Source of the DNA: Bradyrhizobium genomosp. I (2014)
GTDB taxonomy: Bacteria; Pseudomonadota; Alphaproteobacteria; Rhizobiales; Xanthobacteraceae
NCBI RefSeq assembly: GCF_000261685.1
Contig: NZ_AJQE01000203.1
Coordinates: 1 to 64,000, forward strand
DNA: 64,000 nt
Direction of reading: 5' to 3'
Below, piece after piece: positions 41,745 through 60,589 of this stretch. Under the pieces are notes generated by a model. The model did no database searches. It saw only the letters and a program-made list of their open reading frames with translations, and was not told the origin of the DNA. How positions within the stretch are numbered: position 1 is the stretch's first letter; every line of letters begins with the position of its first letter. A program made the translations under genes and the position numbers.

Positions 41745-42021
41745 CCCGTGATGCCACGACGTACATCCGGCCGCGACAAGCAGGCGACAGTTAGCACGGA
41801 GTTCTCGAAGAAAATGTGACCTTCGCCTCGTCGTTCTTGAATGCCGGCCGATTTCAGCGTGCTCGTTCATTTCATCGAGTGGGGCACTCTATTTCTTCTG
41901 TCCAAGACCTACGAACGGGCGGGACAACGGATCCCATCGAGCCGCTTTCGCGCGGAGACTTGCGATCGGCTCGTTCAATGATTTAGATGGGAAGGTGTTT
42001 TTTCTTTTTGGAGCAAATGAC

Positions 42022-42228
42022 GTGGCGTTAGGGACTGTTAAGTGGTTCAACCCGACCAAAGGCTATGGGTTCATTGCGCCGGACGACGGTGGCAACGATG
42101 TTTTCGTGCACATCTCGGCGGTAGAGAAGGCCGGCTATACCTCGCTTGTTGAAGGCGCGAAGGTCAGCTACGAGCTGGTGATGAACCGCAGCGGCAAACA
42201 AGCCGCAGAAAATCTCCGCCTAGGATAA
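42022..42228 (+). CDS. Cold-shock-domain protein (CspA family)
   Basis: 68 residues beginning at GTG (MALGTVKWFN in family terms). RNA-binding motifs RNP1 (KGYGFIAP) and RNP2 (DVFVHIS) are intact. GGAG stands 8 bases before the GTG, which argues against an earlier GTG nine codons upstream. Such proteins bind single-stranded RNA or DNA and melt secondary structure; copies on ICEs may help in transfer or stress. Confidence 0.9.
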   Translation: MALGTVKWFNPTKGYGFIAPDDGGNDVFVHISAVEKAGYTSLVEGAKVSYELVMNRSGKQAAENLRLG

Positions 42229-42259
42229 GGCGCAGCTCGACGTCCTGGCATACTTTGAG

Positions 42260-42601
42260 CTAGCCTGAATCTCGTGGTTTTGAGACCTTTGGAAGATATC
42301 CTAGTTGGCGCTCGAGGGCGGCCAAAGTCGAGTGGGCTGAATCCAAACGTGCGGTCGCCTCAGTTAGGTTGGCCCACGCTTCGTTCTGCCGCGAGACAGC
42401 TGCCGAGCCGATCTTAATGCTATTCTTAAGACACCGCGTGTCTTGGCTGCGTAAGGCGCGCCCCAATTCAGGCAGTATCCTGGTCACCGCTCGATGCGCG
42501 GAACGTTCTTTTCGCTCCAGGCGGCCGACCACGGCGAAGGCCTCACGATAGTTCCATATCGCTTCGATGGCTCTGTTTTCAAGATCGCTTTTGTCGCTCA
42601 T
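42260..42601 (-). CDS. Small coiled-coil hypothetical protein
   Basis: 113 residues, almost wholly helical by composition, with heptad-like spacing (RAIEAIWNYREAFAVVGRLE; LTEATARLDSAHSTLAALER). Its ATG overlaps the stop of the upstream 71-codon frame by four bases. No family is recognised. Confidence 0.5.
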   Translation of the reverse strand: MSDKSDLENRAIEAIWNYREAFAVVGRLERKERSAHRAVTRILPELGRALRSQDTRCLKNSIKIGSAAVSRQNEAWANLTEATARLDSAHSTLAALERQLGYLPKVSKPRDSG

Positions 42602-42813
42602 CCGGTTCTCTTCTCACTCGAGCTCTTAGCGGTCATCATTTGCGCGAGATCCTCCTCTGGGTCCGCGCGGCGAATTGTCGTAACCCCTGTAGGGGCGGGA
42701 AGGCCTGGCGCAAGCCGGCAGCGTCCATTGGAAGGGGCTGACTCGATCAGACATCCAGCGTGCTCGCATTCTAGTCTGTGAGCTTCACACAGAGCGGCCA
42801 AGCATCGAGACAC
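42598..42813 (-). CDS. Possible small Cys/His-rich protein
   Basis: 71 codons from a GTG. The N-terminal part has C-x4-C-x2-H-x3-C-x3-C spacing (ALCEAHRLECEHAGCL), which could bind zinc. The only further support is the ATGA overlap with the next gene; the start lacks a clear ribosome site. Confidence 0.3.
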   Translation of the reverse strand: MSRCLAALCEAHRLECEHAGCLIESAPSNGRCRLAPGLPAPTGVTTIRRADPEEDLAQMMTAKSSSEKRTG

Positions 42814-43142
42814 GACCGATCATCGCAGAGTGGCAGTTTCGTGGCAGTCGTTGTGCGGCATCGACCAAACGGTGACGGATCACAACTACGGCCAGCCGCT
42901 CTCGTGAATGGGGCGTGCTGCCGACGCGCGATCGCGGAAGCGGAGATCCGTCCGTCTCGATTACAGAGGGCTAAGCAGCATTGGATTCGTTGGGCCAGCT
43001 CTCTCGGTGGGCTCCCAAATCGCCACGTTCTCCTTGATGTCAGCTCTGTTTGGATCGAGCGCACCAACGGCCTCTTCGATGGATGGATCTGGCCGAAGGA
43101 CGGCTGAAGCCTCGACCGCCTTTGGCGCAACAGCGGCGTCAC
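42814..43142. other. Intergenic region without recognised gene
   Basis: Several open frames exist on both strands but none shows a family pattern, ribosome site or coupling to a neighbour. The stretch leads into stem-loop element B copy 2 and the DUF736 gene. Confidence 0.4.
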
Positions 43143-43196
43143 AACTTTCTTCCCCTGCCGGCTGCGCCGCCATTCCTCGCGCGAGACAAGAAAGTT
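43143..43196. promoter_or_regulatory. Large stem-loop, intergenic element B (copy 2 of 2)
   Basis: aactttctt (43,143-43,151) pairs with aagaaagtt (43,188-43,196). The 36-base loop ends gcgcgagac, as in copy 1 (tcgcgagac), and also has gccgcc at the same place. The outer stem has no sequence in common with copy 1 yet keeps perfect pairing. It lies 113 bases upstream of the DUF736 start. Confidence 0.7.
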
Positions 43197-43308
43197 CCTC
43201 CTTTGCTGTCCAGCCCCTTCGGGGTGCGCCGTCGATCGCCTCCGGCCTGTCGATCACCATCGAGGCCGCAAGGTGCGGGCTCGAAAACAGAGATCAAGGA
43301 GAACTACC

Positions 43309-43635
43309 ATGGCGACCATCGGCACCTTCAAGAAGACCGGCAACAACGAGTTCAACGGCGAGATCGTCACTCTCTCGCTCCAGGCGAGGAACGTCCGCAT
43401 CGTCCCCGAAACCAGCCGCTCGGGCGACAACGCCCCCAGCCACCGGATCTATGTCGGCCGGGTCGAGATCGGGGCCGCCTGGTCCAAGCGCTCCAACGAA
43501 GGCCGCGATTATCTCGGCCTCAAGCTCGACGATCCGAGCTTCACCGCCCCGATCTTCGCCAACCTCTTCGCCGATGAAGAGGGCGAGGGCTTCAGCCTGA
43601 TCTGGTCTCGCCCCAACCGTCGCAACGGCGACTGA
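43309..43635 (+). CDS. DUF736 protein (stand-alone copy)
   Basis: 108 residues. Family pattern: MATIGTFKKTGNNEFNGEIV, RIVPETSRSGDNAPSHRIY, and GAAWSKRSNEGRDYLGLKLDD. DUF736 proteins are nearly always encoded with rhizobial-type transfer genes; their function is unknown, though the beta-rich fold resembles single-strand-binding or OB-like folds (inference). AAGGAGAA precedes the ATG. A second copy sits in the transfer operon at 49,524, with about one third identity by eye. Confidence 0.88.
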   Translation: MATIGTFKKTGNNEFNGEIVTLSLQARNVRIVPETSRSGDNAPSHRIYVGRVEIGAAWSKRSNEGRDYLGLKLDDPSFTAPIFANLFADEEGEGFSLIWSRPNRRNGD

Positions 43636-43648
43636 GCCGATCCGCAAT

Positions 43649-43675
43649 GCCCCGCCCGGCTGGCCCGGGCGGGGC
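43649..43675 (+). terminator. GC-rich stem-loop after DUF736
   Basis: gccccgcccgg and ccgggcggggc form an 11-bp perfect stem with a 5-base loop, 13 bases after the DUF736 stop. There is no T run, so it may work as a weak or Rho-assisted terminator or as an mRNA 3' end stabiliser. Confidence 0.55.
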
Positions 43676-43751
43676 ACCGCCACGCTGAGGAAGCGCGAAG
43701 GCACCTCGTTTGCCGTGACGGCGCAAGCGGCAAGGGCGTAACCGATGCCGA

Positions 43752-44162
43752 TCAGCGGCCGCGTGCCGATTTGATTGGACGTCTTTGGTTGGCCTCGATC
43801 ACGCTCTCGACGATGTCTTCCCAGTCCGGACAAATGGCGACGAGACGATCCAGCACTGTGGGATCCCGTTCGATCTGGCCAAGCGCCTGAGCGCGCCACT
43901 GGTCGTTGAAACTAATGCTCATCAGTCCCAGGCATTCGACAACCGAACTGTCGGGGAGCAAGTGCTCCATCGTTGCCGTCACTATGCCGGTCCACTGTTG
44001 GATCAGATGCCACGGCTCCGCCTCGCGCCGCGCCTCCAACTTCTCTCCGAGCAGGCCAATCAGCGCAAAGAACCGCGTTGGCCAAGGTTGCGGCCTGAGT
44101 TCCGTGACCAGAGCATCCACTGTCTCGCGAATGTCGGCTGGCAAGTGCTCGTACAGAGTCAT
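43752..44162 (-). CDS. Hypothetical protein
   Basis: 136 residues, soluble and helical, with a Trp- and Leu-rich core (ELRPQPWPTRFFALIGLLGE; ATMEHLLPDSSVVECLGLMS). The layout resembles small ICE proteins of unknown role. It ends 77 bases from the DUF736 stem-loop on the opposite strand. Confidence 0.55.
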   Translation of the reverse strand: MTLYEHLPADIRETVDALVTELRPQPWPTRFFALIGLLGEKLEARREAEPWHLIQQWTGIVTATMEHLLPDSSVVECLGLMSISFNDQWRAQALGQIERDPTVLDRLVAICPDWEDIVESVIEANQRRPIKSARGR

Positions 44163-44325
44163 GAGGCCTACTCCATCTCCCCAGCATGCTCGTCCGTTTC
44201 TGAACTAGGCATGCGCTTTGGAGACAGATCAGATTTACGTAAAGCCGACTATCAACTTATGCGTGAGGCAATGCGGAGTTGATTCACGACGTGCCGGTGT
44301 TGCGGTGGGGCACAAAATTGTCGCG

Positions 44326-44559
44326 TCATCGAGCCCGATGGGAATGAACCGTCGTTCGCTTGACGAGATCGGTTGCTTCGACGCCGAGCGCCTCCGCGAT
44401 TCGGCCAAGCACGGTCACGCTGGCCGACACATCTGCGCGTTCAATTGCGCCGACGTAACGGACGCTTAGTCCAGCGCCATCGGCCAACTCTTCCTGCGTC
44501 ATTTTCTTCACATGACGTATCCGACGCAGATTGACCGCCATGACCTCCTTGAGATCCAT
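44326..44559 (-). CDS. XRE-family regulator, QseC-like
   Basis: 77 residues consisting of one HTH_3 domain (NLRRIRHVKKMTQEELADGA, then GLSVRYVGAIERADVSASV). It resembles the controller proteins of restriction systems and QseC of the ICEMlSymR7A family. Two tandem palindromes lie 22-50 bases before its ATG, and a small gene in QseM position is divergent. In the model system this pair forms a bistable switch deciding whether transfer is repressed. I use the ATG at 44,559, which fits the HTH start. Confidence 0.78.
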   Translation of the reverse strand: MDLKEVMAVNLRRIRHVKKMTQEELADGAGLSVRYVGAIERADVSASVTVLGRIAEALGVEATDLVKRTTVHSHRAR

Positions 44560-44580
44560 GGCAACAAGGGAACTCACATC

Positions 44581-44609
44581 GGAATGATCGTTCCAGGAAC
44601 GATCGTTCC
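44581..44609. promoter_or_regulatory. Tandem operators of the QseC-like regulator
   Basis: ggaatgatcgttcc (44,581-44,594) and ggaacgatcgttcc (44,596-44,609) are two 14-bp palindromes, the second perfect and the first with one mismatch, separated by one base (15 bp between centres). The weaker site is nearer to the regulator gene, an arrangement typical of C-protein operators. Confidence 0.8.
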
Positions 44610-44790
44610 GATTCGTGCGTCACTGTGCTATTCATATCGTCTGGCTAGGCCCTGGTGTGCCGCTTCCGGGGAGCGCCGCGATGCGATCTGCGCATCACGG
44701 CACAATTCGAGTGTGACGATTTCCCAGCTTGCAAAGTTCTGGAGCTTAGATGAATTCTAATCGCTGCATCAATGCTGAGGGGCAATTGCA

Positions 44791-45054
44791 ATGAACGGCG
44801 CGCCATTCCAGGACCGGCCGCCAATAACGGATCGCGTCAACGCCTATGACGAGAAACATCTTGCTATCTACGTTCGGTTGTTGATGGCCGAAGAGGAGGG
44901 CGCCGACTGGCGCGAGGTGGTCAGCGTGATCTTCGGCCTCGACCCCACGCGCGAACCAGATCGTGCCAAAAATGTCCATGATAGCCATCTCGCCCGCGCG
45001 CGATGGATGGTGGAAGCCGGATATCAGGGCCTTTTGGAACCGCGGATGCAGTGA
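44791..45054 (+). CDS. QseM-like antiactivator candidate
   Basis: 87 residues. The sequence ITDRVNAYDEKHLAIYVRLL followed by MAEEEGADWREVVSVIFGLD and ARARWMVEAGYQGLL has the helical pattern of the short DUF2285-related proteins encoded before DUF6499/DUF2285 genes. In ICEMlSymR7A, QseM of similar size and position binds and blocks TraR and FseA. Assignment rests on synteny (XRE regulator divergent, FseA-like genes next). Confidence 0.65.
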   Translation: MNGAPFQDRPPITDRVNAYDEKHLAIYVRLLMAEEEGADWREVVSVIFGLDPTREPDRAKNVHDSHLARARWMVEAGYQGLLEPRMQ

Positions 45055-45173
45055 TTTGCGCCCCAATCACGCAAATTGCGATCTCGCGTGATGCAACCTC
45101 CGGGTCTGGTCTCTTGTAGCGTCTTTAGGGATCGTGGTGCGGGGCACAGAACAAAAAGACGAGAAGACAGACC

Positions 45174-45383
45174 ATGCCGACCCAGTACTGGCGCTCGCCG
45201 GAGACCATCGAACGCCTGAATCGTCTTGAGCGCCCGGGTTTTGCCCTCGAATTCCTTCGTCGCAATGCCGACTACCGCCGCGACTTCGCCCGCACTGAGC
45301 GACAGATCGCGCGCGGCGAATCCGATCCCAACACCATCCGAACCAGTTTCGCACGTCGATGGAGGTTGCGGTGTCGCCCATGA
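45174..45383 (+). CDS. DUF6499 protein: N-terminal half of an FseA-like activator
   Basis: 69 residues. YWRSPETIERLNRLERPGFA, then LEFLRRNADYRRDF, is the DUF6499 pattern. The frame stops at TGA (45,381-45,383) just as the DUF2285 half begins in the +1 frame. In the family of FseA, the two halves are joined by a rare +1 ribosomal frameshift, giving an activator of excision. GAGAAG stands 8 bases before the ATG. Confidence 0.8.
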   Translation: MPTQYWRSPETIERLNRLERPGFALEFLRRNADYRRDFARTERQIARGESDPNTIRTSFARRWRLRCRP

Positions 45384-45960
45384 CCCCGCCTCTCCGGTTT
45401 GGCCCGAACCAGCCATTTGGCTGCCCGAGGCATCACCGGGAACATTGATCCTGACGCCCGCGCCGCCGGACTTCGAGACCGTTCATTCGATTGATCGCAA
45501 CGCTTTCGGACTGTCGATCGTCGGGCGGACAGATGCTGACGGTCGCGAGCTGGTTGTCGCCGACGGCTCGGGTGAGCTCCATGTCAGTTTGCGCGACGAG
45601 CAGGCCGCGCGCCGTCCCGCCGTGCTTGTGCCGCTCGACGGCATGGGCGAACTGCGGGCCGACGTGGCGCTACACTTCGTGCGTCGCCTCAGCGGCCAGC
45701 GCACCGGTCTTCTCCCGGCGGCGCTGCGGCTGACGTCGTTTCAGAAACGGCGACTGATTCAGCTCCTGCACGCCTTCGACGTCCACGACCTGGGTGGCGG
45801 CCCGCGAGACGTGGCAGCGAAGGTGCTCGCCTCCGACCACGCTCAGCGCCGCTCGGTCGAGTGGAAGGATTCTCATGCCCGCCGCAAGGCGAACCGGCTC
45901 ATTCACGATTCAATCGCTTTGGTCGAGCGCGGCTATCTGAAACTTCTACGCGGCCTCTGA
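45379..45960 (+). CDS. DUF2285 domain: C-terminal half of the FseA-like activator (+1 frame)
   Basis: About 194 codons. After PVWPEPAIWLPEASPGTLIL the DUF2285 core reads LVPLDGMGELRADVALHFVR, LTSFQKRRLIQLLHAFDV and ARRKANRLIHDSIALVERGY. No ATG or GTG in this frame lies near the start of homology; the only upstream initiators are TTG codons inside the DUF6499 coding region. The frame is exactly +1 to that of the DUF6499 gene, so the product is best explained as the downstream part of a frameshift fusion. Confidence 0.78.
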   Translation, partial: HDPASPVWPEPAIWLPEASPGTLILTPAPPDFETVHSIDRNAFGLSIVGRTDADGRELVVADGSGELHVSLRDEQAARRPAVLVPLDGMGELRADVALHFVRRLSGQRTGLLPAALRLTSFQKRRLIQLLHAFDVHDLGGGPRDVAAKVLASDHAQRRSVEWKDSHARRKANRLIHDSIALVERGYLKLLRGL

Positions 45961-46044
45961 TCGGCTCCCCGATTCCTTCAAGCCATCGACCTGATGAGTT
46001 AGTTGCGCCCCGGTAGTACGCCTGGCTTCGCCTGGTTGCGACGA

Positions 46045-46084
46045 TGGGGGGACACAAACGTACGTCAATTTTCGTCCACCCCCA
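46045..46084. promoter_or_regulatory. Imperfect inverted repeat before the excisionase-like gene
   Basis: tggggggac (46,045-46,053) faces gtccaccccca (46,074-46,084), with the 8-bp palindrome acgtacgt at 46,058-46,065 between them. It lies about 80 bases before the ATG at 46,164 and is a candidate activator site. Confidence 0.35.
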
Positions 46085-46163
46085 ACGCCTGAACTCTCCG
46101 CCACTCTGGCCCGGACATGCCGCGACTTGGCCGCGGCACTTCGAGGCAAGACGGAGATCTCCC

Positions 46164-46415
46164 ATGCTCGACAGGCCTGCGCAACTCGCCACCCGTTACG
46201 TGCGCACCCCCGAGGCCGCGCGCCTCCTCGGCATCTCGCCGCGCACGCTTGAAAAATATCGCTGCCATGGCAATGGCCCGACTTTTCGCAAGCTCGGCGG
46301 CCGCGTTGTCTACGCCATCGGCGATCTCGAAGCCTGGGCCGATCAGGCCGCCTGCAGCTCAACGTCGGATCCGCGCTACCTCGAAGCGCGCGCCGCCGGC
46401 AACGCGCATCGCTAA
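46164..46415 (+). CDS. Excisionase-like HTH protein (RdfS-like)
   Basis: 83 residues. A MerR/AlpA-type HTH is visible: YVRTPEAARLLGISPRTLEK, then GPTFRKLGGRVVYAIGDLEA. In ICEMlSymR7A the homologous gene rdfS encodes the recombination directionality factor at the head of the transfer operon and is switched on by FseA. Here it also comes directly before repA and parA. CGGAG stands 8 bases before the ATG. Confidence 0.75.
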   Translation: MLDRPAQLATRYVRTPEAARLLGISPRTLEKYRCHGNGPTFRKLGGRVVYAIGDLEAWADQAACSSTSDPRYLEARAAGNAHR

Positions 46416-46428
46416 GGCAACGCTCGTC

Positions 46429-47544
46429 ATGTCGTCGCGTCGCCTCATCACACCCAGCGAGCGAAGCAAGCTCGACCCGTTCGTTGTCGCCACCGGTGAT
46501 GCCAGCCCGCGTGATCAACGCGACCTGATGGAGCGCCCGTTCTTTTCGCTCGCCAAGGCCAAGCGAACAAGACCGATCCTCTACCAGACCGGCGACGTGT
46601 GTGTCGAAGTCTATGCAGTTCCTGAGCACGGTATGGCGACCATTTGGGATGCCGACGTGCTGATTTGGGCGGCGAGCCAGATTGTCGAGGCCGAGAACCT
46701 CGGTCTGAAGACCTCGCGCTTCCTGCGCTTCACACCCTACCAGCTTCTGACCGCAGTCGGCCGGCAGACCGGCGCCCGCGACTACAAGCTCTTGAAGGGG
46801 GCATTGGCCCGCCTGCAGGCGACCGTCATCCGCACCAGCATCCGGCAGGGGGAGCATTGGCGGCGCCACCAGTTCTCATGGATCAACGAATGGGAGGAAT
46901 GCGCGACGCGCGACGGTCGGGTGCAGGGAATGGAATTCGTCCTTCCCGACTGGCTCTATCGCGGCGTCATCGATCGCTCACTCGTTCTCACGATCGATCC
47001 GGCCTATTTCAGCCTGACTGGTGGGATCGAGCGCTGGCTCTACCGCGTCGCGCGCAAGCATGCTGGCCGCCAGCCGAGAGGTTGGCTGTTCGAGGTCGCA
47101 CACCTCCATGAGAAATCCGGCAGCCTCGCCAAGCCTGCAGACTTCGCCTTTGATCTCCGCCGGATCGCGGCACGTCAACCGCTGCCAGGCTACTGCCTGA
47201 GCATCGAACGCAGGGAACGCCGAGAGCTATTGCGCATCCTGCCATCGAAGTCATTCACAGCTCCTGTGGACGGCGCTGTGAATCAGCTCGGGACTTCGGG
47301 CGTTCACACTATCGGGACTCCGGGCGTGCCGGTATCGGGATTCCGGGAGTGCAAACCACAGCTAACGCTTTGGCCAGGAAACACGATCGCCTGCCCTAAC
47401 TTAGAGTCTAACTTAGAATCTAACTGTTGTAGTGGGGCCGCGCGTCTTGCGGATAACACCGACATCCGCGCTCAGCCGCCAACCGAGCACCCAAGCCAAC
47501 CATCTCTGCCGCTTTCAGGTCGCAAGACGGGAGGCATGCGATGA
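46429..47544 (+). CDS. repA: Replication initiator protein A (plasmid/ICE RepA)
   Basis: 371 residues. The first 280 match the RPA family: ERPFFSLAKAKRTRPILYQT, ATIWDADVLIWAASQIVEA, FTPYQLLTAVGRQTG and GIERWLYRVARKHAGRQP. The C-terminal 90 residues are low in structure and their DNA contains two sets of direct repeats. RepA initiates theta-type replication in plasmids; ICE copies are thought to help the excised circle persist. The stop overlaps the ParA start (ATGA). Confidence 0.85.
   Translation: MSSRRLITPSERSKLDPFVVATGDASPRDQRDLMERPFFSLAKAKRTRPILYQTGDVCVEVYAVPEHGMATIWDADVLIWAASQIVEAENLGLKTSRFLRFTPYQLLTAVGRQTGARDYKLLKGALARLQATVIRTSIRQGEHWRRHQFSWINEWEECATRDGRVQGMEFVLPDWLYRGVIDRSLVLTIDPAYFSLTGGIERWLYRVARKHAGRQPRGWLFEVAHLHEKSGSLAKPADFAFDLRRIAARQPLPGYCLSIERRERRELLRILPSKSFTAPVDGAVNQLGTSGVHTIGTPGVPVSGFRECKPQLTLWPGNTIACPNLESNLESNCCSGAARLADNTDIRAQPPTEHPSQPSLPLSGRKTGGMR
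47288..47425 (+). repeat. Iteron-like direct repeats inside repA (possible replication origin)
   Basis: Three copies of tcggga(c/t)t(t/c)cggg(c/a)gt begin at 47,288, 47,312 and 47,335 (spacing 24 and 23 bases, about two helical turns). Sixty bases later the AT-rich unit ctaacttaga(g/a)t occurs twice in tandem (47,396-47,419) followed by ctaact. Iterons next to an AT-rich repeated block are typical of RepA-dependent origins. Confidence 0.6.
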
Positions 47545-48179
47545 TCGTCGCCGTGCTCAACCAGAAAGGCGGTGTCGGCAAGACCACGCTCGCCCTGCAC
47601 CTCGCCGGCGTATGGGCGCTGCGCGGAAAGCGCGTGACGCTGATCGACGCTGACCCCCAGGGCTCCGCATTGGACTGGTCGCAGCAGCGTGCGCGGGAGA
47701 ATGTCGCACGGCTATTCGGCGTCGTTGGCCTCGCGCGCGATACGCTCCACCGCGAGGCGCCGGAAATCGCACGCACCGCCGATCATGTCGTCATTGACGG
47801 ACCGCCGCGCGTCGCGGGACTGATGCGTTCGGCGCTGCTGGCGGCGGATCTCGTGTTGATCCCCGTGCAGCCGTCGCCATTCGACGGCTGGGCCTCGGCC
47901 GAGATGCTCGCTCTGCTGCGAGAGGCTCGCATCTATCGTCCGCAGCTTCCTGCTCGCTTTGTGCTCAACCGCTGCGGCGCGCGCACGATCATCGCCCGCG
48001 AGACTGCCGAAACTCTCGCCGACCACGATCCGCCGGTGCTCGCCAGCACCATCGGCCAACGCGTTGTCTTCGCCGACGCCGCTCAGTCCGGACGGCTCGT
48101 CTTCGAGTTCGTCGAGCAGAGCGCCGCCGCCCGCGAGATCGCCGCGCTCGCGGCAGAAGTTGCGAGGTTCGCGCCATGA
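47541..48179 (+). CDS. parA: ParA-family partition ATPase
   Basis: 212 residues. Deviant Walker A KGGVGKTTL (residues 9-17), Walker A' DADPQGSALDW and Walker B VVIDGPPRV are intact. Short ParA of this kind segregates plasmids or excised ICEs with a small partner; the RHH-like protein encoded next, overlapping by four bases, is the probable partner. Confidence 0.9.
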   Translation: MIVAVLNQKGGVGKTTLALHLAGVWALRGKRVTLIDADPQGSALDWSQQRARENVARLFGVVGLARDTLHREAPEIARTADHVVIDGPPRVAGLMRSALLAADLVLIPVQPSPFDGWASAEMLALLREARIYRPQLPARFVLNRCGARTIIARETAETLADHDPPVLASTIGQRVVFADAAQSGRLVFEFVEQSAAAREIAALAAEVARFAP

Positions 48180-48442
48180 GCGACCGCTCTATCAAACGCG
48201 GCTTCGCCTCGCGTCCGGGCGATGCCGAGAGCTGGATCAAAGCCAGTGATACGCCGCCACGCAGCGTGAATGATGCTGCCGCATTCACCGCGCGCCTGAC
48301 GATTGACGTCACGCCCACGCTGCGCGGCCGCATCAAGGTCGCCGCGTTCCAGCGCGGCGTGACCGTCGCCGACATGCTGCGCGAATTGCTGGCGCGAGAG
48401 TTCCCCGCTGACGCCCCGGAGAACCGTCATGAACGACAATGA
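48176..48442 (+). CDS. Small ribbon-helix-helix-like protein, probable ParA partner
   Basis: 88 residues. The C-terminal half (FTARLTIDVTPTLRGRIKVA, then AFQRGVTVADMLRELLAREF) has the strand-helix-helix pattern of a ParG/Arc-type DNA-binding protein; the N-terminal half is flexible. Overlaps with parA upstream and DUF2840 downstream show translational coupling. Confidence 0.75.
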   Translation: MSDRSIKRGFASRPGDAESWIKASDTPPRSVNDAAAFTARLTIDVTPTLRGRIKVAAFQRGVTVADMLRELLAREFPADAPENRHERQ

Positions 48443-48947
48443 AGCCTTGCCGCCGCGTGCAGTGCCGCCCTCGCATCGACGGGATGTCGCGCTCACCCAT
48501 GTCGAGCTGACCTGGATCGAGAAGCGGATCGAGCACTGGCTGCGCTTCGGCCGCCGCGCGGAGGAGAAGATTCTCGACCGTCGCCGCAGCATCTCGAGCT
48601 TTGAGCCGGGCAGCATCTTCGGCTTCGTCCGCTGGGCATCGAACGACTATGGCACCGTGGTGTCGCGCATGGACATCGTGCGTGCCGTGGAAGCCGGGCA
48701 GCGCTATCAGACGCTGCCCTTCGTCCGCCCCGGTGGCGAAATCCTGCTGCGCGTTGATAGCTGGCCGAAGGTCGAGCGCGTGTTGCAGGCCATCGACGCC
48801 ATCGAGGCGCTCTCCATCGATCCGGCTGACGCCGCACCCGAATACTGGCGGCATCTCCACAACCGTCTCGCCGCCGACCATGTGCCGCGCGCCTACACGC
48901 GCGAGCAGCATATCGCCTGGCTCAAGCGCCGGAGCGTCACGCCATGA
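48429..48947 (+). CDS. DUF2840 protein
   Basis: 172 residues. LTHVELTWIEKRIEHWLRFG, RRRSISSFEPGSIFGFVRWA and the PGGEILLRVDSWPKVERVL stretch are typical. It is strictly linked to the ParA-TraF segment of rhizobial ICEs; its function is unknown. It is soluble and basic. Confidence 0.85.
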   Translation: MNDNEALPPRAVPPSHRRDVALTHVELTWIEKRIEHWLRFGRRAEEKILDRRRSISSFEPGSIFGFVRWASNDYGTVVSRMDIVRAVEAGQRYQTLPFVRPGGEILLRVDSWPKVERVLQAIDAIEALSIDPADAAPEYWRHLHNRLAADHVPRAYTREQHIAWLKRRSVTP

Positions 48948-49489
48948 CCCGCTTCGGCTATCTCATGTTGACCTACCTTGCGGCGCTGGTCGCCGGCGCC
49001 CTGGCCCTCGTTCATCCTGCGCCGCGGCTGATTTGGAACGCTACCGCGAGCACGCCAATAGGGCTCTACGCGCTGCATCCGCTCGGAGAGCTGCGCGACT
49101 TGGAACTGGTCGCGGTACGGCTGCCGGAACCGATCGCCAGCTTCCTTGCCGATGGCGGCTTTCTTCCAAAAGGTCTGCCGCTGCTGAAGCGTGTGATGGC
49201 GCTGCCCGGGCAAACCGTGTGCCGGTCGGGCGATGCCATCACGGTCGATGCTGTCGATGTCGGCGCCGCACACGAGCACGATCATCGCGGCCGTCCGCTG
49301 CCGCGTTGGAGCGGTTGCCATACCCTCGAACCGGGCGAGGTCTTTCTCATGAACCCGACCGTCCCAGACAGCCTGGACGGCCGCTATTTCGGCGCGCTCC
49401 CCGTCAGCTCGATCGTCGCGCGCGCAGTCCCGCTTTGGACGGACGAAGCCGCCGACGGCCGTTTCGTCTGGCGCGCCGCCACTCATTGA
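48944..49489 (+). CDS. traF: S26-family signal peptidase, TraF-like
   Basis: 181 residues with one N-terminal membrane helix (residues 6-24). Catalytic Ser36 lies in TASTPIGLY and Lys82 in LLKRVMALPG, followed by box E-like LMNPTVPDSLDGRYFG. TraF of IncP-type systems processes and cyclises the TrbC pilin in the periplasm. Because trbC is lost from this element, the peptidase has no evident substrate left. The ATG overlaps the DUF2840 stop. Confidence 0.88.
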   Translation: MTRFGYLMLTYLAALVAGALALVHPAPRLIWNATASTPIGLYALHPLGELRDLELVAVRLPEPIASFLADGGFLPKGLPLLKRVMALPGQTVCRSGDAITVDAVDVGAAHEHDHRGRPLPRWSGCHTLEPGEVFLMNPTVPDSLDGRYFGALPVSSIVARAVPLWTDEAADGRFVWRAATH

Positions 49490-49523
49490 CCCGTTTCCAA
49501 CCCAGCAACCCAGGAGCTTTCCC

Positions 49524-49859
49524 ATGGCACAAATCGGCCAGTTCACGCGCGATAAGTCCGGCTTCACCGGTCGCGTTGAAACGCTGTTCTTCGAGCGGAT
49601 TCTCACCCTCGTCCCGGCCGAATCCTCGGATGCCGAGAACGCGCCGGACTACCGTATCCGCCTCGGCGATGCCGATGGCCCGGAGATCGGCGCAGGTTGG
49701 AAGCGGACCGGCGAGAAGGCCGGCGATTACGTTTCGCTCGTCATCGACGACCCGGCGCTGCCGCGGCCGATCCGCGCAAATCTCTTCCAGTCGGGCAACG
49801 ACAAAGCGGCCTGGACGCTGAACTGGAATCGTCAGCCCCAACGCGCCGAGCGGGACTGA
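49524..49859 (+). CDS. DUF736 protein (transfer-operon copy)
   Basis: 111 residues: AQIGQFTRDKSGFTGRVETL, NAPDYRIRLGDADGPEIGAG and GDYVSLVIDDPALPRPIRAN. It lies between the TraF peptidase and the lytic transglycosylase, as in other ICEs of this family. The protein has no signal peptide. AGGAG precedes the ATG. Confidence 0.88.
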   Translation: MAQIGQFTRDKSGFTGRVETLFFERILTLVPAESSDAENAPDYRIRLGDADGPEIGAGWKRTGEKAGDYVSLVIDDPALPRPIRANLFQSGNDKAAWTLNWNRQPQRAERD

Positions 49860-49863
49860 TTGC

Positions 49864-50772
49864 ATGCAGGATCCTGTCGCGCGTGCCGCCAACCAGGCGC
49901 ATCAACGGTCCACCCCCTTGTTCGGGGAAAAGCCCTCTCATAACTCGGGTCCACGCAACCGTCGGGCGGCCGCCACGCACAGCGGCGGTCAAACCGGTGG
50001 TCCGTGCGCACCGCCGGTAGGCAGCAAGACGCCTCGCCATGATGGCGGAGACAGGGCGAGCCTTGCCGTTCTCCTCCTTACCGGCCTGCTGGTGATTGGC
50101 GGGCCAACGGCAGCAGTGTCCGGGCAGAGAGCACCGGCACGAAGTCAACCGGCGAGCGATCACTACGCATCTCATGTGGCAGAGGCCGCGCAGCGCTTTG
50201 GCATTCCGGCTGCATGGATACGAGCCGTCATGCGGGTCGAGAGCAATGGCGATCGGCGTGCCGTCTCACCCAAAGGCGCACTCGGCCTGATGCAACTCAT
50301 GCCCAAGACTTGGGCGGACATGCGCGCGCGCTATGGTCTCGGGCGCGATCCCTTCGATCCCCGTGACAACATCCTCGCCGGCGCCGCCTTTCTTCGCGAA
50401 CTGCACGACCGTTACGGCTCGCCGGGCTTTCTCGCGGCCTATAATGCAGGTCCCGGCCGCTACGAGGAGTTTCGGGATAGACACCGTCCACTGCCCGCGG
50501 AGACGACAGCCTATGTCGCGGCCATCGTCCCTTTTGTCGACGCGGAGGGAGCGCCAGGACCTCTTCTCCTCGCGGCTTCTTCTCGTTCATCCTGGACGCG
50601 GGCGCCGCTGTTCTTCGACCACGCTGACGGGCCGTCCCCTGGCGCGCGAGCGGCGCTCGATCAACCCGCGCACGGCGGCTCAGTCGGCACTACGGTGCAC
50701 GATATTTCGGCGATTGCGCCGCAGTCGGAGGGCCTGTTCGTCGCGCTCTCGGCCATGGGGCGATCGCAATGA
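49864..50772 (+). CDS. Lytic transglycosylase, VirB1/TrbN-like
   Basis: 302 residues. A membrane or signal segment (residues 66-82) separates a disordered N-terminus from an SLT domain with catalytic Glu126 (MRVESNGD), SPKGALGLMQLMPKTW and LAAYNAGPGRY. It should open the peptidoglycan for the mating channel. The true start could lie inside the long N-terminal stretch, as many relatives begin closer to the signal anchor. Confidence 0.85.
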   Translation: MQDPVARAANQAHQRSTPLFGEKPSHNSGPRNRRAAATHSGGQTGGPCAPPVGSKTPRHDGGDRASLAVLLLTGLLVIGGPTAAVSGQRAPARSQPASDHYASHVAEAAQRFGIPAAWIRAVMRVESNGDRRAVSPKGALGLMQLMPKTWADMRARYGLGRDPFDPRDNILAGAAFLRELHDRYGSPGFLAAYNAGPGRYEEFRDRHRPLPAETTAYVAAIVPFVDAEGAPGPLLLAASSRSSWTRAPLFFDHADGPSPGARAALDQPAHGGSVGTTVHDISAIAPQSEGLFVALSAMGRSQ

Positions 50773-51098
50773 CTGCACGGCATCTTCAACGTCAATGCGC
50801 GGATCGCGGTACGTCTGCAGGCACCCTTGTTGCGGCGGCTGCACATCGGGCAGCTCGCGATATCAGCTGTCAGTTTCCAGGTTCGCTGGCGCCCCTTGAC
50901 GAACATTCGGTTTGCATTCGAAACGCTGCAACACAGTCATACGGGCGATGCCTTCGGCCCGCGCTCTACTCGTCGCTTCGCTCCTCACCGAGCCACCCTA
51001 CGGGTGTCTCGGCCCTTCGCGTAACGATCGCTATCGCAAACACTCGCAAACAGTGGGGGCTTCCGCGAGTACCGACCGAACGATGGCGAGATAAAAGG
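50773..51098. other. Intergenic region before the relaxase gene
   Basis: No gene is seen. Frames in this stretch have no family pattern. A palindrome-rich segment (caccgagccaccctacgggtgtctcgg) lies near 50,985-51,012. With the following repeats it may form the oriT region. Confidence 0.4.
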
Positions 51099-51231
51099 CC
51101 GCAATGTGCGGCTCGGTCGGTTGGTTGTTTGTGCTGCTATTTTTCCTCGGGTCCGCAATGTGCGGCTTCGGCGCGCAATGTGCGCTCGACTATCAACCCG
51201 TTGCAGGGATTCTGCATTCCGCACATTGTCG
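51099..51231. other. Probable origin of transfer (oriT) repeat cluster
   Basis: The unit ccgcaatgtgcgg occurs at 51,099-51,111 and 51,153-51,165; gcgcaatgtgcgc at 51,173-51,185 keeps the core and changes both stem arms together; an inverted copy ccgcacattgtcg lies at 51,219-51,231, 10 bases before the relaxase ATG. Repeats of this type directly upstream of a relaxase gene are expected for its binding and nicking region. The nick site is not identifiable from sequence alone. Confidence 0.6.
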
Positions 51232-51240
51232 AGGCTGGCC

Positions 51241-52980
51241 ATGGCTGAAGACAGCGATTTTCAACCACGGCCCGGCCGCATCCGCTCCTCGAGGAGCCAG
51301 CGGGCCAAGCCCTTCATCGCCCAGGCGCTTGCCGCCGCTCAACGCGCTGGCGGCGGCATTTCGCGAGCCGGCCAGCTCGTCAGCCACCGTCATTCGCGCT
51401 TCGGCCGCGGCCGAGCCGCCAGCGTGCGGGCAAACCGTCTGCTCACCGGCCGCTCGCGTCTGGTGACCATCAAGACCCGGGTCGTCCGGCACAGGGCGAG
51501 GTCGGCGCCGCTCGCGACGCATCTCGGCTATCTCCGGCGCGAAGGCGTGACCCGGGACGGGGAGAAGGCCCACCTGTTCGGCCCGGGCACCGAGGATGCC
51601 GATCCCAAGGCCTTCGCCGAGCGCTGTCAGAATGACCGCCACCATTTCCGCTTCATCGTCTCCCCCGAGGACGCGCCTGACATGGCCGACCTCAAGGGTT
51701 TCGCCCGCGAATTGGTCGGCCAGATGGAAGTGGATCTGGGTACCAAGCTCGACTGGGTGGGGGTCGATCACTGGAACACCCAGCACCCCCACGTCCACAT
51801 CATCGTGCGCGGCGTCGCAGAGGACGGCCAAGACCTCGTCATCTCCCGCGACTACATCAAGGAAGGGATGCGCGCCCGCGCCCAGGACCTGGTCACCCAG
51901 GAACTTGGACTGCGCTCCGATCTCGACATTCGTCGCTCGCTCGAGAGCCAGATCGGAGCCGAGCGCTGGACGCAGCTCGATCGCCAGCTTGTTCGCGATG
52001 CAAACCAGCACGGTGTTATCGACCTTGCGCCGCGTCCCGAGCAGCAGCCCGATCAATTCCATGCGTTGAAGGTTGGCCGGCTGCGACACTTGGAAAGTCT
52101 TGGCCTCGCTCATCAACTCGGGCCCGGCCAATGGTCCATGGACGAGGCCGCCGAAACGACCTTGCGCGAGCTCGGCGAACGCGGCGACATCATCAAGCGT
52201 ATCCACCGCAGCTTGACCGAACGCGGCATCGAGCGCGGGAGCGCGAGTTACGTGTTATCAGGCGAAAATCTTGACGTCCCCGTCATCGGGCGTCTCGTTG
52301 ATCGCGGTCTCGACGACGAGCTCAAGGCGACCGCCTATGCCGTGGTCGACGGGGTCGACGGCCGCACCCACCACATCCGGCTGCCCGACCTCGACGCTGC
52401 CGGCGACAGCGCGCCAGGCTCAATCGTCGAGCTTCGCAAATTCGATGACGCAAGAGGGCAGCGTCGCGTGGCGCTTGCCGTCCGCTCCGATCTCTCGATC
52501 GAAGCGCAGGTGACCGCGAGCGGCGCGACATGGCTCGATCGGCAGGCCGTCGCGCGCGACCCTGTGGCGCTTGGCCAGGGCGGCTTCGGCGCCGAGGTCC
52601 GCGACGCTATGGAACGGCGGCCCGAGCAGCTCATCGGGCAGGGGCTCGCCGAACGCCAGGCGCGTGGACTGGTGTTCGCGAAAAACCTTATCGGCACGCT
52701 GCGCCGTCGGGAGTTAGAGGATCTCGGCAAGCAGCTCGCCGCCGAGACCGGTCAGCCGTTCAACCCGTCGGCTAGCGGCGAGTATGTGGCAGGCACCTAT
52801 CGGCAGCGCTTCGCGCTCGCCTCCGGCCGCTTCGCCATGATCGACGACGGTCTCGGCTTCCAGCTCGTGCCTTGGACGCCCTCACTCGATAAACAGCTCG
52901 GCCGGCATGTCTCTGGCGTCGCGCGCGCGGATGGCGGCATCGATTGGGGTTTTGGGCGCAACCGGGGGCTCGGCTTGTGA
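51241..52980 (+). CDS. Relaxase of the DUF3363 / VirD2-like family
   Basis: 579 residues. The metal-binding histidines stand in DHWNTQHPHVHIIVRG (His177, 182, 184, 186) and an RHHFRFIVSPED block comes before; the C-terminal 330 residues are the DUF3363 domain. It nicks oriT and stays bound to the transferred strand. Strong codon bias and an open frame from the oriT repeats to the TraG gene support an intact gene. Confidence 0.9.
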   Translation: MAEDSDFQPRPGRIRSSRSQRAKPFIAQALAAAQRAGGGISRAGQLVSHRHSRFGRGRAASVRANRLLTGRSRLVTIKTRVVRHRARSAPLATHLGYLRREGVTRDGEKAHLFGPGTEDADPKAFAERCQNDRHHFRFIVSPEDAPDMADLKGFARELVGQMEVDLGTKLDWVGVDHWNTQHPHVHIIVRGVAEDGQDLVISRDYIKEGMRARAQDLVTQELGLRSDLDIRRSLESQIGAERWTQLDRQLVRDANQHGVIDLAPRPEQQPDQFHALKVGRLRHLESLGLAHQLGPGQWSMDEAAETTLRELGERGDIIKRIHRSLTERGIERGSASYVLSGENLDVPVIGRLVDRGLDDELKATAYAVVDGVDGRTHHIRLPDLDAAGDSAPGSIVELRKFDDARGQRRVALAVRSDLSIEAQVTASGATWLDRQAVARDPVALGQGGFGAEVRDAMERRPEQLIGQGLAERQARGLVFAKNLIGTLRRRELEDLGKQLAAETGQPFNPSASGEYVAGTYRQRFALASGRFAMIDDGLGFQLVPWTPSLDKQLGRHVSGVARADGGIDWGFGRNRGLGL

Positions 52981-53021
52981 GTGATCCTTCCAATCACCGA
53001 CGTCAGGAGAGGGCGGCCGCC

Positions 53022-55004
53022 ATGTCGGCGACCAAGATTCTTTGGGGGCAGGTCATCATGGTCTTCGGCATCGTCCTGCTCACGATCTGGGCCGCGACGG
53101 AATGGACGGCTTGGCGCCTCGGCTTTCAGCCGCAGCTCGGGCAGCCCTGGTTCGAGCTGCTCCATTTTCCGTTCTACCTTCCGCCTGCCTTCTTCTGGTG
53201 GTGGTATGCCTACGATGCTTACGCGCCCTCAATCTTCACCGAGGGCGCCTTCATCGCGGCATCCGGCGGCATCATCGCTGCGGCGGTCGCGATCGGTATG
53301 TCGGTCTGGCGCGCCCGCGAAGCGAAGAATGCCGAGACTTATGGGTCCGCGCGGTGGGCGAAGGCAAAGGAGATCGAGCAGGCTGGATTGCTTGGACCCG
53401 ACGGCGTGGTGCTCGGCCGGTTCGAGCGCACCTATCTTCGCCATGATGGACCGGAGCATGTCCTGTGCTTCGCACCCACGCGATCGGGCAAGGGCGTCGG
53501 CCTCGTCATCCCTTCGCTCTTGACGTGGCCGGGCTCGGCTATCGTCCACGACCTCAAGGGGGAGAACTGGCAGCTCACTGCCGGCTTTCGCGCCCGACAC
53601 GGCCGTGTCCTTCTGTTCGATCCGACCAACGCGAAGTCGTCGGCCTATAACCCGTTGCTCGAGGTGCGCCGCGGCGAGTGGGAGGTGCGCGACGTCCAGA
53701 ACATTGCCGACATTCTGGTCGACCCGGAGGGCAGCCTCGAGAAGCGGAACCATTGGGAGAAAACCAGTCACGCCCTGCTGGTCGGCGCGATCCTCCACGT
53801 CCTCTATGCCGAGGAAGACAAGACGCTCGCCGGTGTCGCAGCCTTCTTGTCCGATCCCAAGCGGCCCATTGAGACGACGCTTGCCGCAATGATGCGAACC
53901 GCGCATCTCGGCGAGGCCGGTGTTCATCCCGTCGTCGCGTCCGCTGCCCGCGAGTTGCTGAACAAGTCCGGCAACGAACGCTCCGGTGTCTTGAGCACCG
54001 CCATGTCGTTCCTGGGCCTTTACCGAGATCCCGTGGTGGCGGAGGTGACGCGGTGCTGCGACTGGCGGATTACCGATATCGTTGGCGGAGAGCGAGCGAC
54101 CACGCTGTACCTTGTCGTGCCGCCCTCCGACATCAATCGCACCAAGCCGCTGATCCGTCTGATCCTCAACCAGATAGGCCGCCGCTTGACCGAGGATCTG
54201 CAAGCCAAGGCCGGCCGGCGCCGGCTCCTCCTGATGCTCGACGAATTCCCGGCGCTCGGCCGGCTCGACTTCTTCGAGTCTGCGCTGGCCTTCATGGCCG
54301 GATACGGCATCAAGAGTTTCCTGATTGCTCAGTCGCTGAACCAGATCGAGAAGGCCTACGGGCCCAACAACTCGATCCTTGACAACTGCCACGTCCGGGT
54401 CAGCTTTGCGACCAACGACGAGCGCACCGCAAAGCGCGTGAGCGACGCGCTCGGCACGGCGACCGAGATGAAGGCGATGAAGAACTATGCCGGCAGCCGG
54501 CTGGCGCCTTGGCTGGGCCACCTCATGGTGTCGCGGTCCGAGACCGCCCGCCCGCTGCTCACGCCCGGCGAGATGATGCAGCTCCCGCCCTCCGACGAGA
54601 TCGTCATGATGTCGGGCCTCCATCCGATTCGGGCGAAGAAGGCGCGCTATTACGAAGATAGACGTTTCCAGGAGCGCATCATGGCGCCGCCGATGCTGAC
54701 GAAATCCAATGGCGGCCGGTTGGACGATTGGAGCTCAAGGCCATTGCCGCCGCGCCCAAGGGCATTGGAGACGTTGAACGACGACCAGACGGATGACGAA
54801 GATCCAAAGGCCGCCGACCGCAGGCAGCAGCCGGAACTCGATCGAGACACGGTGGAGAATAAGGAACCACTCGAGAACGAGTTCGCTTCGGACCTCGTGG
54901 ATGAGCTCGATGAAGATGTCCCGCGGATCAGGCGCATGAACGACATGATGCAGGGCGTGGCGCGCCAAGCCTCCCTCGATCCCGGCGACGATCTCGGATT
55001 GTGA
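53022..55004 (+). CDS. traG: Type IV coupling protein TraG/VirD4
   Basis: 660 residues. Two to three membrane helices (about 9-27, 48-66, 73-96) precede the ATPase with Walker A FAPTRSGKGVG (residues 150-160) and Walker B LLLMLDEFPALG (about 401-412). The C-terminal 80 residues are acidic and disordered. It links the relaxosome to the secretion channel. GGAGAGGG stands before the ATG at 53,022. The secretion channel itself is deleted downstream, so this protein would need a partner from elsewhere. Confidence 0.92.
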   Translation: MSATKILWGQVIMVFGIVLLTIWAATEWTAWRLGFQPQLGQPWFELLHFPFYLPPAFFWWWYAYDAYAPSIFTEGAFIAASGGIIAAAVAIGMSVWRAREAKNAETYGSARWAKAKEIEQAGLLGPDGVVLGRFERTYLRHDGPEHVLCFAPTRSGKGVGLVIPSLLTWPGSAIVHDLKGENWQLTAGFRARHGRVLLFDPTNAKSSAYNPLLEVRRGEWEVRDVQNIADILVDPEGSLEKRNHWEKTSHALLVGAILHVLYAEEDKTLAGVAAFLSDPKRPIETTLAAMMRTAHLGEAGVHPVVASAARELLNKSGNERSGVLSTAMSFLGLYRDPVVAEVTRCCDWRITDIVGGERATTLYLVVPPSDINRTKPLIRLILNQIGRRLTEDLQAKAGRRRLLLMLDEFPALGRLDFFESALAFMAGYGIKSFLIAQSLNQIEKAYGPNNSILDNCHVRVSFATNDERTAKRVSDALGTATEMKAMKNYAGSRLAPWLGHLMVSRSETARPLLTPGEMMQLPPSDEIVMMSGLHPIRAKKARYYEDRRFQERIMAPPMLTKSNGGRLDDWSSRPLPPRPRALETLNDDQTDDEDPKAADRRQQPELDRDTVENKEPLENEFASDLVDELDEDVPRIRRMNDMMQGVARQASLDPGDDLGL

Positions 55005-55011
55005 GGTAGCC

Positions 55012-55452
55012 ATGATCGGGACAAAAAAGAAGGCTCAGCTGTCGGTCTATCTCGATCCTGATGTCATGAAGGCGCTATCGGCCTACGCCGCCCGGCGCGA
55101 GCAGTCGCTGTCGCTTATCGCGGAAGCCGCGATCGCTTCCTTTCTGTCGCCGGACGCCGATGAACGGCGAGAGGCTGCTACTGCCAAGCGTCTTGACCAG
55201 ATCGACCGCCGGATCGCGCGCCTTGAGCGGGATGTCGGGATTTCGGTCGAGACTATCGCTCTCTTCATCCGCTTCTGGCTCACGACAACACCATCACTCC
55301 CCGAACCCGCCGCCAAGGCCGCGAGAGCACAGGCCGGAGCGCGTTATGATAATTTCCTTGCCGCATTGGGCCGCCGGCTCAATCAAGGGCCGAAACTGCG
55401 GCAAGAAATCCCGGAGGATGCCCAGCAGACTGACTCGTCCCCAGGCGAGTGA
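55012..55452 (+). CDS. CopG/ribbon-helix-helix regulator of the trb operon
   Basis: 146 residues. The RHH motif reads AQLSVYLDPDVMKALSAYAA then RREQSLSLIAEAAIASFL; a helix-rich tail follows. In related ICEs it lies between traG and trbB, as here. Its stop overlaps the ATG of the trbB remnant. Confidence 0.83.
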   Translation: MIGTKKKAQLSVYLDPDVMKALSAYAARREQSLSLIAEAAIASFLSPDADERREAATAKRLDQIDRRIARLERDVGISVETIALFIRFWLTTTPSLPEPAAKAARAQAGARYDNFLAALGRRLNQGPKLRQEIPEDAQQTDSSPGE

Positions 55453-55550
55453 TGCTCAACCCCGACGGTCGGCTCTGGATCGATTGGCTGTCTGGCGGGT
55501 TGGAGGATAGCGGACGAACGATGTCCGCCGCCGACGGCGAGCGGATCGTG
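55452..55550 (+). pseudogene. trbB: trbB 5' remnant
   Basis: The first 33 codons (MLNPDGRLWIDWLSGGLEDS, then GRTMSAADGERIV) are the conserved N-terminus of the TrbB secretion ATPase. After GERIV the frame runs into unrelated sequence and no Walker motif follows. Everything from here to the trbI 3' end at 59,508 has been replaced. Confidence 0.85.
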
Positions 55551-55739
55551 GACCATCCAAAAAGTGTTAGGCGACCCGCGTGCTCAACTGCGAAATGCAT
55601 GCCCTCCCCTGGATCAACTCGATCAGAGGCGACCCCCTGGCCCCGTATGCGACCGTCTGATGCGAGCTATATCCCTCGACGGCCTGCCAGGATCGACTGC
55701 GACCTAGCGAGTGATGTCAACGGGATGAGGGGGGATCCT

Positions 55740-55894
55740 GTGTTTGCGACAATTGTACAAGCGTTGCCAAGATTGCCTCAGTCGAAGACACGGATAGTGT
55801 TCGCACATTCACGCTCGATTTCCCAGACTGGTTAACCAATGACCTCGCCATTGAAGCGGGCGTATCTTTAGACGGTGTGTGTCTCAAGGCGACG
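55740..55894 (+). pseudogene. Riboflavin-synthase-like N-terminal fragment
   Basis: A short piece starts FATIVQA in one frame and continues VAKIASVEDTDSVRTFTLDF, then PDWLTNDLAIEAGVSLDGVC, in another, the pattern of the first lumazine-binding repeat of riboflavin synthase alpha. The frame change falls at caagcgttgcc. No second repeat follows. The stretches 55,551-55,739 and 55,895-56,086 hold nothing recognised. Confidence 0.6.
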
Positions 55895-56086
55895 ACTGGC
55901 ATTTCTTCCACCCGAGTTCTTCTCGACTCCAATCGAGCGAGTAAGCCAGGAGCCAATCAGCGCGCCGCGCCCGTGACTTGCTGGCGGAGTTGCGGCTATT
56001 ATGTGTTTGCGAACAGGATCAACGAGATTTTGTCAGGCCCCATCCGTTGATCTATCTTCGGTCGGGCTTCTAGAGACAAACCGCCG

Positions 56087-56482
56087 ATGATGAAGACGTA
56101 CACCGGCTCGTGTCACTGCGGCACCGTCCGTTTCGAGATCGACGCCGATATCGACCATGTGCGGGTTTGCGACTGCTCTATCTGCTCGAAGCGTGGCGCG
56201 CTGATTTATCGCGTCGCCGAGGGCGACTTCCGGCTCCTGACGCCCCTCCAGGAGTTGTCGGTCTATCGCTGGGGTTTATTCACTGCGGCTGACTATTTTT
56301 GCCCGGTTTGCGGTATTTTGCCGTTCCGCAAACCAAGCCAGCCCACCGCAGCAGAACGCGAAGCCGGCATTCGGCCGTTCGACGGATGGGCAGTGAACGT
56401 GCGTTGCCTGAAGGACTTCGATCCGTTTTCAGTGCCCGTTCGGCAGATTCACGGCAGCAGGCTGACAATTGATTCGCCATAG
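56087..56482 (+). CDS. GFA-family (glutathione-dependent formaldehyde-activating-like) protein
   Basis: 131 residues. The zinc-binding cysteines are in place: SCHCGTVRFE, CDCSICSKRG and YFCPVCGILPF. Members of the family act on S-hydroxymethylglutathione or are uncharacterised. The gene is intact although its surroundings are fragments, so it may still be expressed. Two ATGs stand at the start (56,087 and 56,090). Confidence 0.83.
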   Translation: MMKTYTGSCHCGTVRFEIDADIDHVRVCDCSICSKRGALIYRVAEGDFRLLTPLQELSVYRWGLFTAADYFCPVCGILPFRKPSQPTAAEREAGIRPFDGWAVNVRCLKDFDPFSVPVRQIHGSRLTIDSP

Positions 56483-56499
56483 CGGCCCTTGCCATGGAC

Positions 56500-57065: not shown

Positions 57066-57114
57066 TATTCTTCAAGCTCAATTGGCGCTCCAATAGACTT
57101 GCCTGATGAGGCGT

Positions 57115-57730: not shown

Positions 57731-57895
57731 ACGTCAACTCATGCCATGGTGCTAGGCCTCAAAACACTGGCTATAATCCCGCTATTATTTCTTGGTCGGT
57801 GTTCCTCGACGTGATCTAGCCTCAAACGCGGCCGGGACCGTGATCGATGCACGTGGGCAGTCGGCGTCCCACGCGCTTCGCACGATGCCCGCGGC

Positions 57896-58344: not shown

Positions 58345-58356
58345 TCGACCCAGCCG

Positions 58357-58719: not shown

Positions 58720-58723
58720 GACC

Positions 58724-60550: not shown

Positions 60551-60589
60551 TCTCAGCAGACCGCGAGTATCTGCTCGATGCCCCTCTAG

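Follow-up and report, generated by a model that had tools for sequence, protein, structure and literature searches.

In ICEMlSymR7A (Mesorhizobium japonicum), FseA is produced from msi172 and msi171 by low-frequency +1 frameshifting (PMC10359603). According to the same source, which describes conservation of the frameshift site in alpha-, beta- and gammaproteobacteria, ~61 % of 4709 FseA homologues need the frameshift. The shift occurs at UUU; the fourth codon upstream of this UUU is a conserved Trp, followed by Gly (PMC5009743). Two further +1 systems are relevant. In prfB, a Shine-Dalgarno (SD)-like element lies 3 nt before the slip sequence (PMC12421855), and yeast Ty3 shifts at GCG_AGU_U, with Ala-Val as product and minimal re-pairing (PMC5009743).

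The window considered here, i.e. the whole analysed stretch of 64,000 nucleotides of Bradyrhizobium DNA, carries at 45174-45960 an FseA-family activator gene split over two frames in +1 relation. Like ICEMlSymR7A FseA, it is composed of a DUF6499 frame followed by a +1-joined DUF2285 frame; a Trp is the fourth codon before the shift codon, an RBS-like sequence covers the W-x-L codons, and qseM/qseC-like as well as rdfS/traF/rlxS-type genes lie nearby (PMC10359603, PMC5009743, PMC5882170). Unlike ICEMlSymR7A FseA, it displays TGT instead of UUU, W-R instead of W-G and a perfect GGAGG.

A two-frame fseA gene in an R7A-like element

Frame 0, read from its ATG, matched PF20109/DUF6499 (Pfam, E 9.6e-20). 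The second frame, open over 45226-45960 and exactly +1 relative to the first, matched PF10074/DUF2285 (E 2.8e-27) and DUF7012 (E 2.4e-8). Joined by a one-base skip, the two gave a 261-residue chain displaying DUF6499, DUF7012 and DUF2285 in the order of FseA, with scores of 65.9 bits (DUF6499) and 95.0 bits (DUF2285), both above the Pfam cut-off; DUF6499 followed by DUF2285 in one chain and two frames in +1 relation, as characteristic of the family, were thus both found. The joined chain had no match in NCBIfam at E 0.1, and the sequence had none among solved structures (best E 0.27). A chance split could be excluded because the same +1 split recurs in the close relatives that have retained both parts, and codon periodicity switches frame at the junction. 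The frames, the family and the mobile-element context had all been read correctly in the original prediction, as frames, Pfam domains and neighbouring genes confirmed; its view that frameshifting is needed to join the frames also appears to hold.

Table 1. Coordinates of fseA, its sequence elements and neighbouring genes in the window
Feature	Position	Strand	Remark
HTH_3 regulator, divergent, qseC-like by position only	44326..44577	-	
Lone DUF2285-like ORF, qseM-like by position	44791..45054	+	Pfam match below cut-off, E 5.8e-4
fseA part 1 (DUF6499 / PF20109), frame 0	45174..45383	+	ATG 45174 to TGA 45381-45383
Internal Shine-Dalgarno-like element GGAGGT	45361..45366	+	Most close TTT relatives have UGGGGGU
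Inferred shift site CGG TGT C	45369..45375	+	Aligned codon TTT in 152/162 clean +1-split alleles
fseA part 2 (DUF7012 + DUF2285 / PF10074), +1 frame	45376..45960	+	
Candidate FseA box GGACAC-N16-TCGTCC	46050..46077	+	Upstream of rdfS-like gene; spacing compared with the text of PMC10359603
rdfS-like small HTH_17 protein, candidate target gene	46164..46415	+	rdfS by position and size, not by family model
TraF-like conjugative peptidase	48944..49489	+	Best model TraF_Ti, below its cut-off
RlxS-like relaxase	51106..52980	+	E 2.7e-175, below NCBIfam whole-protein cut-off

The gene belongs to an R7A-like ICE in Bradyrhizobium (Table 1), the core of which also includes RPA, ParA-like, DUF2840 and TraG(-like) genes. 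Both halves of the candidate FseA box, GGGGGACA and GTCCACCCCC, were kept in 11 of 12 aligned loci, L011 being the exception. Three further genes of the window, all on the minus strand, were recorded: a weak match to the quorum-sensing repressor TraM near the regulatory genes (42260-42601; E 5e-4, below cut-off), a serine recombinase-type gene (60937-62517) that lies downstream of the conjugation genes and encodes Resolvase and Recombinase domains, and a phosphorylase-superfamily domain joined to the effector-associated domain EAD7 (21944-23368), an architecture that we take to be of the type found in bacterial conflict systems.

Position and distribution of the shift site

In homologous register, the window reads TGG AGG TTG CGG TGT C GCC CAT GAC, where TGT is the shift codon and AGG stands at the Gly codon. 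The original prediction had placed the slip at CGC CCA TGA C, two codons downstream of CGG TGT C. This overlap had been quoted correctly, while its role as shift site was not sustained by the alignment, in which frame 1 is already read there. Comparison of alleles indicated that frame-0 constraint ends, and frame-1 constraint begins, at CGG TGT C. Among close alleles, silent frame-0 changes extended to the Leu codon (TTG/TTA/CTG), and silent frame-1 changes started at the first post-site codon (GCC/GCA/GCG in TGT alleles; GCT in L018). At position 45378, 10 TGT alleles had C, A or G, and all four bases occurred among TTT alleles. In aligned close alleles this variation leaves the Ala of frame 1 unchanged but would alter the frame-0 residue, which means that translation is already in frame 1 at this position.

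Four path-disjoint pairs of TGT alleles displayed upstream frame-0 changes at codon positions 1/2/3 in numbers of 12/12/53 (p 2e-10), frame-1 changes of 5/3/22 over the 23 post-site codons (p 9e-6), and none in the TGT-C bases. Because of this frame-1 periodicity over 23 codons, and because no start is common to all 11 TGT alleles, the sequence directly 3' of TGT-C is, as judged from the substitutions, translated in frame 1, the switch lying within 45369-45377. A slip at CGC CCA TGA C was rejected, as frame-1 constraint covers 45376-45378 and the stop is not conserved. The weak UGAC stop context, to which a role had been assigned, also turned out to be incidental, since the stop is TAA in L011, is followed by T in some alleles, and is absent from the next eight codons in 98 of 152 TTT alleles.

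Searches with PF20109 spanned overlapping samples of 385 genomes at class level, 397 at order level and 398 at phylum level, plus 14 chosen genomes, and relatives were added. Altogether 178 distinct rows were classified, and 12 more had no Trp found (two of them, L136 and L150, show TTT-C). PF20109 matches without a locus were taken in only in part (60), those left out including longer, fused-looking frames. A +1 split was called in 166 of the 178 alleles, and 162 displayed TTT or TGT directly at the expected place; the four rows outside the 162 are L140, L249 and L250, which are TTT-C by eye, and L121, with a single frame through the site. L038 and the L019 group (TGT, damaged) are likewise outside the 162, and L118, L169 and one L201 row (other or no DUF2285 call) remained uncounted. 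The 162 clean alleles, the window's included, were divided into 152 with TTT (followed by C in 141 and by T in 11) and only 10 with TGT, all from one Bradyrhizobium group. The usual UUU is thus replaced by TGT in the window and nine other clean alleles; Trp is kept while the following Gly has become Arg. The original prediction had correctly foreseen a slip sequence unlike the known one; it had missed the actual change, from the homologous TTT (45372-45374) to TGT together with GGG to AGG.

All 10 TGT alleles displayed AGG, which accompanied TTT in only two alleles; no split gene combined TGT with GGN. A site pattern covering this fseA subfamily only was matched in 23 of 265 Bradyrhizobium genomes, at 26 places: 19 with TGT (all AGG) and seven with TTT (two AGG). 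Nine rows were called fused, and the site was judged in seven, the Trp being doubtful in L143 and L201. The aligned codon in these seven was CTG (three), TGT (two), TCG (one) or CTT (one), and never TTT. As the two fused alleles with TGT, L141 and L142, indicate, a Cys can be accommodated at this place, and TGT may be a means of preventing slippage. In L121 (G027:C1:8263967-8264128) the single frame reads TGG GCC TCT GCT TTC GCC CAT GAC, as if one base had been lost; the best DUF2285 match of L121 was called in another frame, and the gene may be broken further on. Among the papers listed for FseA, for DUF2285 or DUF6499 and for frameshifting, no title or abstract opening pointed to a TGT shift site, and the passages of PMC9174649 and PMC8627217 contained no information on the shift site.

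Selection on TGT alleles and spread of the surrounding DNA

For 21 alleles, 10 of them TGT, a tree was built without the site; some of its inner branches are weak. It required at least two changes to TGT and at least three to AGG, and one single TGT clade was rejected (p-AU 1.2e-5). In the second TGT group (L078/L084), the base between the two changes (TTA) is the lineage's own, as in L012, so a single gene conversion tract would not explain both changes; two tracts would be possible. Both kinds of allele occur in genome G066. The coupling of AGG with TGT rests on only two inferred gains of TGT and could partly reflect ancestry.

In the DUF2285 frame, dN/dS had a median of 0.170 among 11 TGT alleles (range 0.105-0.237; 55 pairs, median dS 0.47) and of 0.175 among seven Bradyrhizobium TTT alleles (21 pairs). 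None of 1000 neutral replicates reached the observed silent count in any of 10 overlapping pairs of TGT alleles. The downstream frame of TGT alleles is, by these estimates, under selection as strong as in TTT relatives. The first part of fseA was kept in 10 of the 11 TGT alleles; in the remaining one, L038, it is replaced. L019, L020, L045, L060 and L073 have one common TGT allele in which the DUF2285 frame stops 39 codons past the site.

The fseA DNA was identical in seven genomes. Window bases 42001-61000 (19 kb) had a full-length match of 100 % (rounded) in G005, G010, G058, G122 and G157, and in G021 a single uninterrupted match spanned 17.6 kb. In a 6-kb rpoB region, by contrast, the main alignment of these genomes with the window's own (G000) displayed only 91.4-96.3 % identity. 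The DNA around fseA has therefore recently spread between species. This concerns movement of the surrounding DNA only, and a part of FseA in driving it would be a separate matter. A canonical FseA supplied in trans could apply to G000, which has two more copies, and was rejected for the single-contig genomes G021, G122 and G157, where fseA is the only PF20109 match at E 0.001. The two further fseA genes of G000 (contigs C279 and C280; L002-L005) read TGG GGG CTY TCG TTT T, and a lone DUF2285 match lies ahead of each, just as it does in the window, which suggests two more ICEs or remnants.

Proposed frameshift and alternative readings

A working +1 frameshift at CGG-UGU-C, driven mainly by the SD-like element rather than by tRNA re-pairing and yielding FseA, is our main reading, with a probability of roughly 0.73. 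Ribosomes would read W-R-L-R (TGG AGG TTG CGG) in frame 0, pass over a single base at CGG-UGU-C and continue in frame 1 with A-H-D-P..., giving a 261-residue FseA predicted to activate the downstream rdfS-like gene. The main drive would come from the internal SD-like element, the core of which became a perfect GGAGG in the lineages with TGT, and tRNA-Val might enter out of frame at GUC with CGG occupying the P site, similarly to yeast Ty3. The sequences show the frames, their homology, where the frame switches, selection on both parts in TGT alleles and recent spread of the DNA around them; the occurrence and rate of frameshifting, the tRNA mechanism and the activation of rdfS we infer.

Upstream of TGT, the change of GGG to AGG converts UGGGGGU into UGGAGGU, a perfect SD core, and raises computed pairing with the 16S tail (a sequence occurring once in the window's own genome) from -9.6 to -10.5 kcal/mol (11-mers). 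With 15-mers, computed pairing was -10.5 to -10.9 kcal/mol in the 10 TGT alleles, against a median of -9.6 in 150 GGN-TTT alleles. As 22 of these 150 pair as strongly as TGT alleles, a strong SD is not special to TGT. Computed pairing was weaker in the seven fused alleles with an aligned site (median -5.5). By computed pairing, the window has, like prfB, an internal SD-like element that can bind the 16S tail; a prfB stretch gives -10.7, near the window's -10.5.

While tRNA-Phe (GAA) can re-pair from UUU to UUC, tRNA-Cys (GCA) should, by the pairing rules, not re-pair from UGU to GUC, so the classic slippage would be unavailable at TGT. With the prfB-like spacing of 3 nt, CGG would occupy the P site and UGU the A site. 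In 14 window ORFs, UGU ranks with the rarest sense codons (1.9 per 1000; 0/1377 in rpoB), and GUC, the +1 codon, is frequent (36.6 per 1000). CGG was invariant in the 10 TGT alleles, the same place holding 23 kinds of codon in TTT alleles. In the genome stretches examined, tRNA-Arg(CCG), tRNA-Cys(GCA), tRNA-Val(GAC) and tRNA-Phe(GAA) were found once each among 48 tRNAs; a missing tRNA for CGG was ruled out as a cause, its cognate being present.

The proposed site resembles prfB (release factor 2) in its SD-like element upstream of a +1 site, 3 nt from a codon that is here CGG, and differs in lacking a CTTT slip, an A-site stop (the stop comes two codons later and is not conserved) and RF2 autoregulation. 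Like Ty3, it would allow little or no re-pairing, has a Val codon in +1, and combines a rare frame-0 codon with a common +1 codon. Ty3 is, by analogy, the nearest precedent for a +1 shift with minimal re-pairing; unlike Ty3, the cognate tRNA for the P-site codon is present and a bacterial SD element stands in place of a 3' stimulator. SD-driven shifting without slippage is favoured, and simple low-rate shifting at UGU would fit as well. Against a working shift stand the loss of +1 re-pairing and the TGT of the fused L141 and L142: TGT may simply be non-slippery. The damage seen in two other TGT alleles, the L019 group and L038, counts against it as well. Only tentatively, and with the odds rather against it, we consider that a bacterial +1 frameshift evolved at least twice from slippery UUU-Y to an SD-driven CGG-UGU-C with GUC read as Val, running the transfer switch of spreading ICEs.

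If the change of TTT to TGT had instead abolished frameshifting, the gene would be dead or becoming a pseudogene. The predominance of TTT (152 of 162 clean alleles) and the damaged relatives, i.e. the L019 group with its broken C frame and L038, fit this; it is nevertheless unlikely, as the DUF2285 frame is selected as strongly in TGT as in TTT alleles, TGT was gained on two or more occasions, always together with AGG, and the surrounding DNA recently spread between species. A sequencing or assembly error in the window has next to no probability: the source is a draft of 508 contigs, yet the same fseA DNA occurs in seven genomes, in five of them (G005, G010, G021, G122, G157) on the main contig of an assembly of one or two contigs. 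The risk, raised by the original prediction, that resequencing would reveal one intact frame was dispelled by the agreement of these independent assemblies. Very improbable, too, is the originally predicted slip at CGC CCA, with UGAC as the weak stop. E. coli prfB does have a stop followed by C (PMC12421855), but codon 45376-45378 is already under frame-1 constraint, and in many relatives the stop is missing, is TAA or is followed by T.

GGAGG could alternatively permit internal initiation of the DUF2285 part at GUC 45373 or TTG 45445, giving a two-chain or antagonist product. AGG does create a perfect SD core, TGT a GUC in the right frame 7 nt downstream, and offset +85, where the window has TTG 45445, is occupied by a start codon in nine of the 11 TGT alleles (TTG in eight, GTG in L078). 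This reading is quite improbable all the same: GUC is a very poor start codon, the +85 start is absent in L036 and L084, L009 and L040 have no other start between the upstream in-frame stop and +85, and frame-1 constraint already extends over the 23 codons that precede +85. The earlier statement that the DUF2285 frame has no usable start nearby was essentially right: the window has its closest frame-1 starts at ATG 45265 and TTG 45445, and a canonical start (ATG/GTG/TTG) of this part common to all 11 TGT alleles was not found. A frame-2 leader from GTG 45371 was also rejected, as it ends after nine codons in L040 and L079 and after 25 in the other nine TGT alleles.

Returning to the SD-driven shift at CGG-UGU-C, residue 67 of the product, Cys or Val, would separate P-site slippage from out-of-frame A-site entry. 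The encoded Trp-Gly peptide has been suggested as stimulator (PMC5009743); the change of Gly to Arg argues, as far as alleles can tell, for the RNA sequence rather than this peptide. A lineage without the slip codon, in which the fused protein is still selected on DNA that spread recently, allows the components of the FseA signal to be told apart: the slip codon can be lost while the SD-like element is retained.
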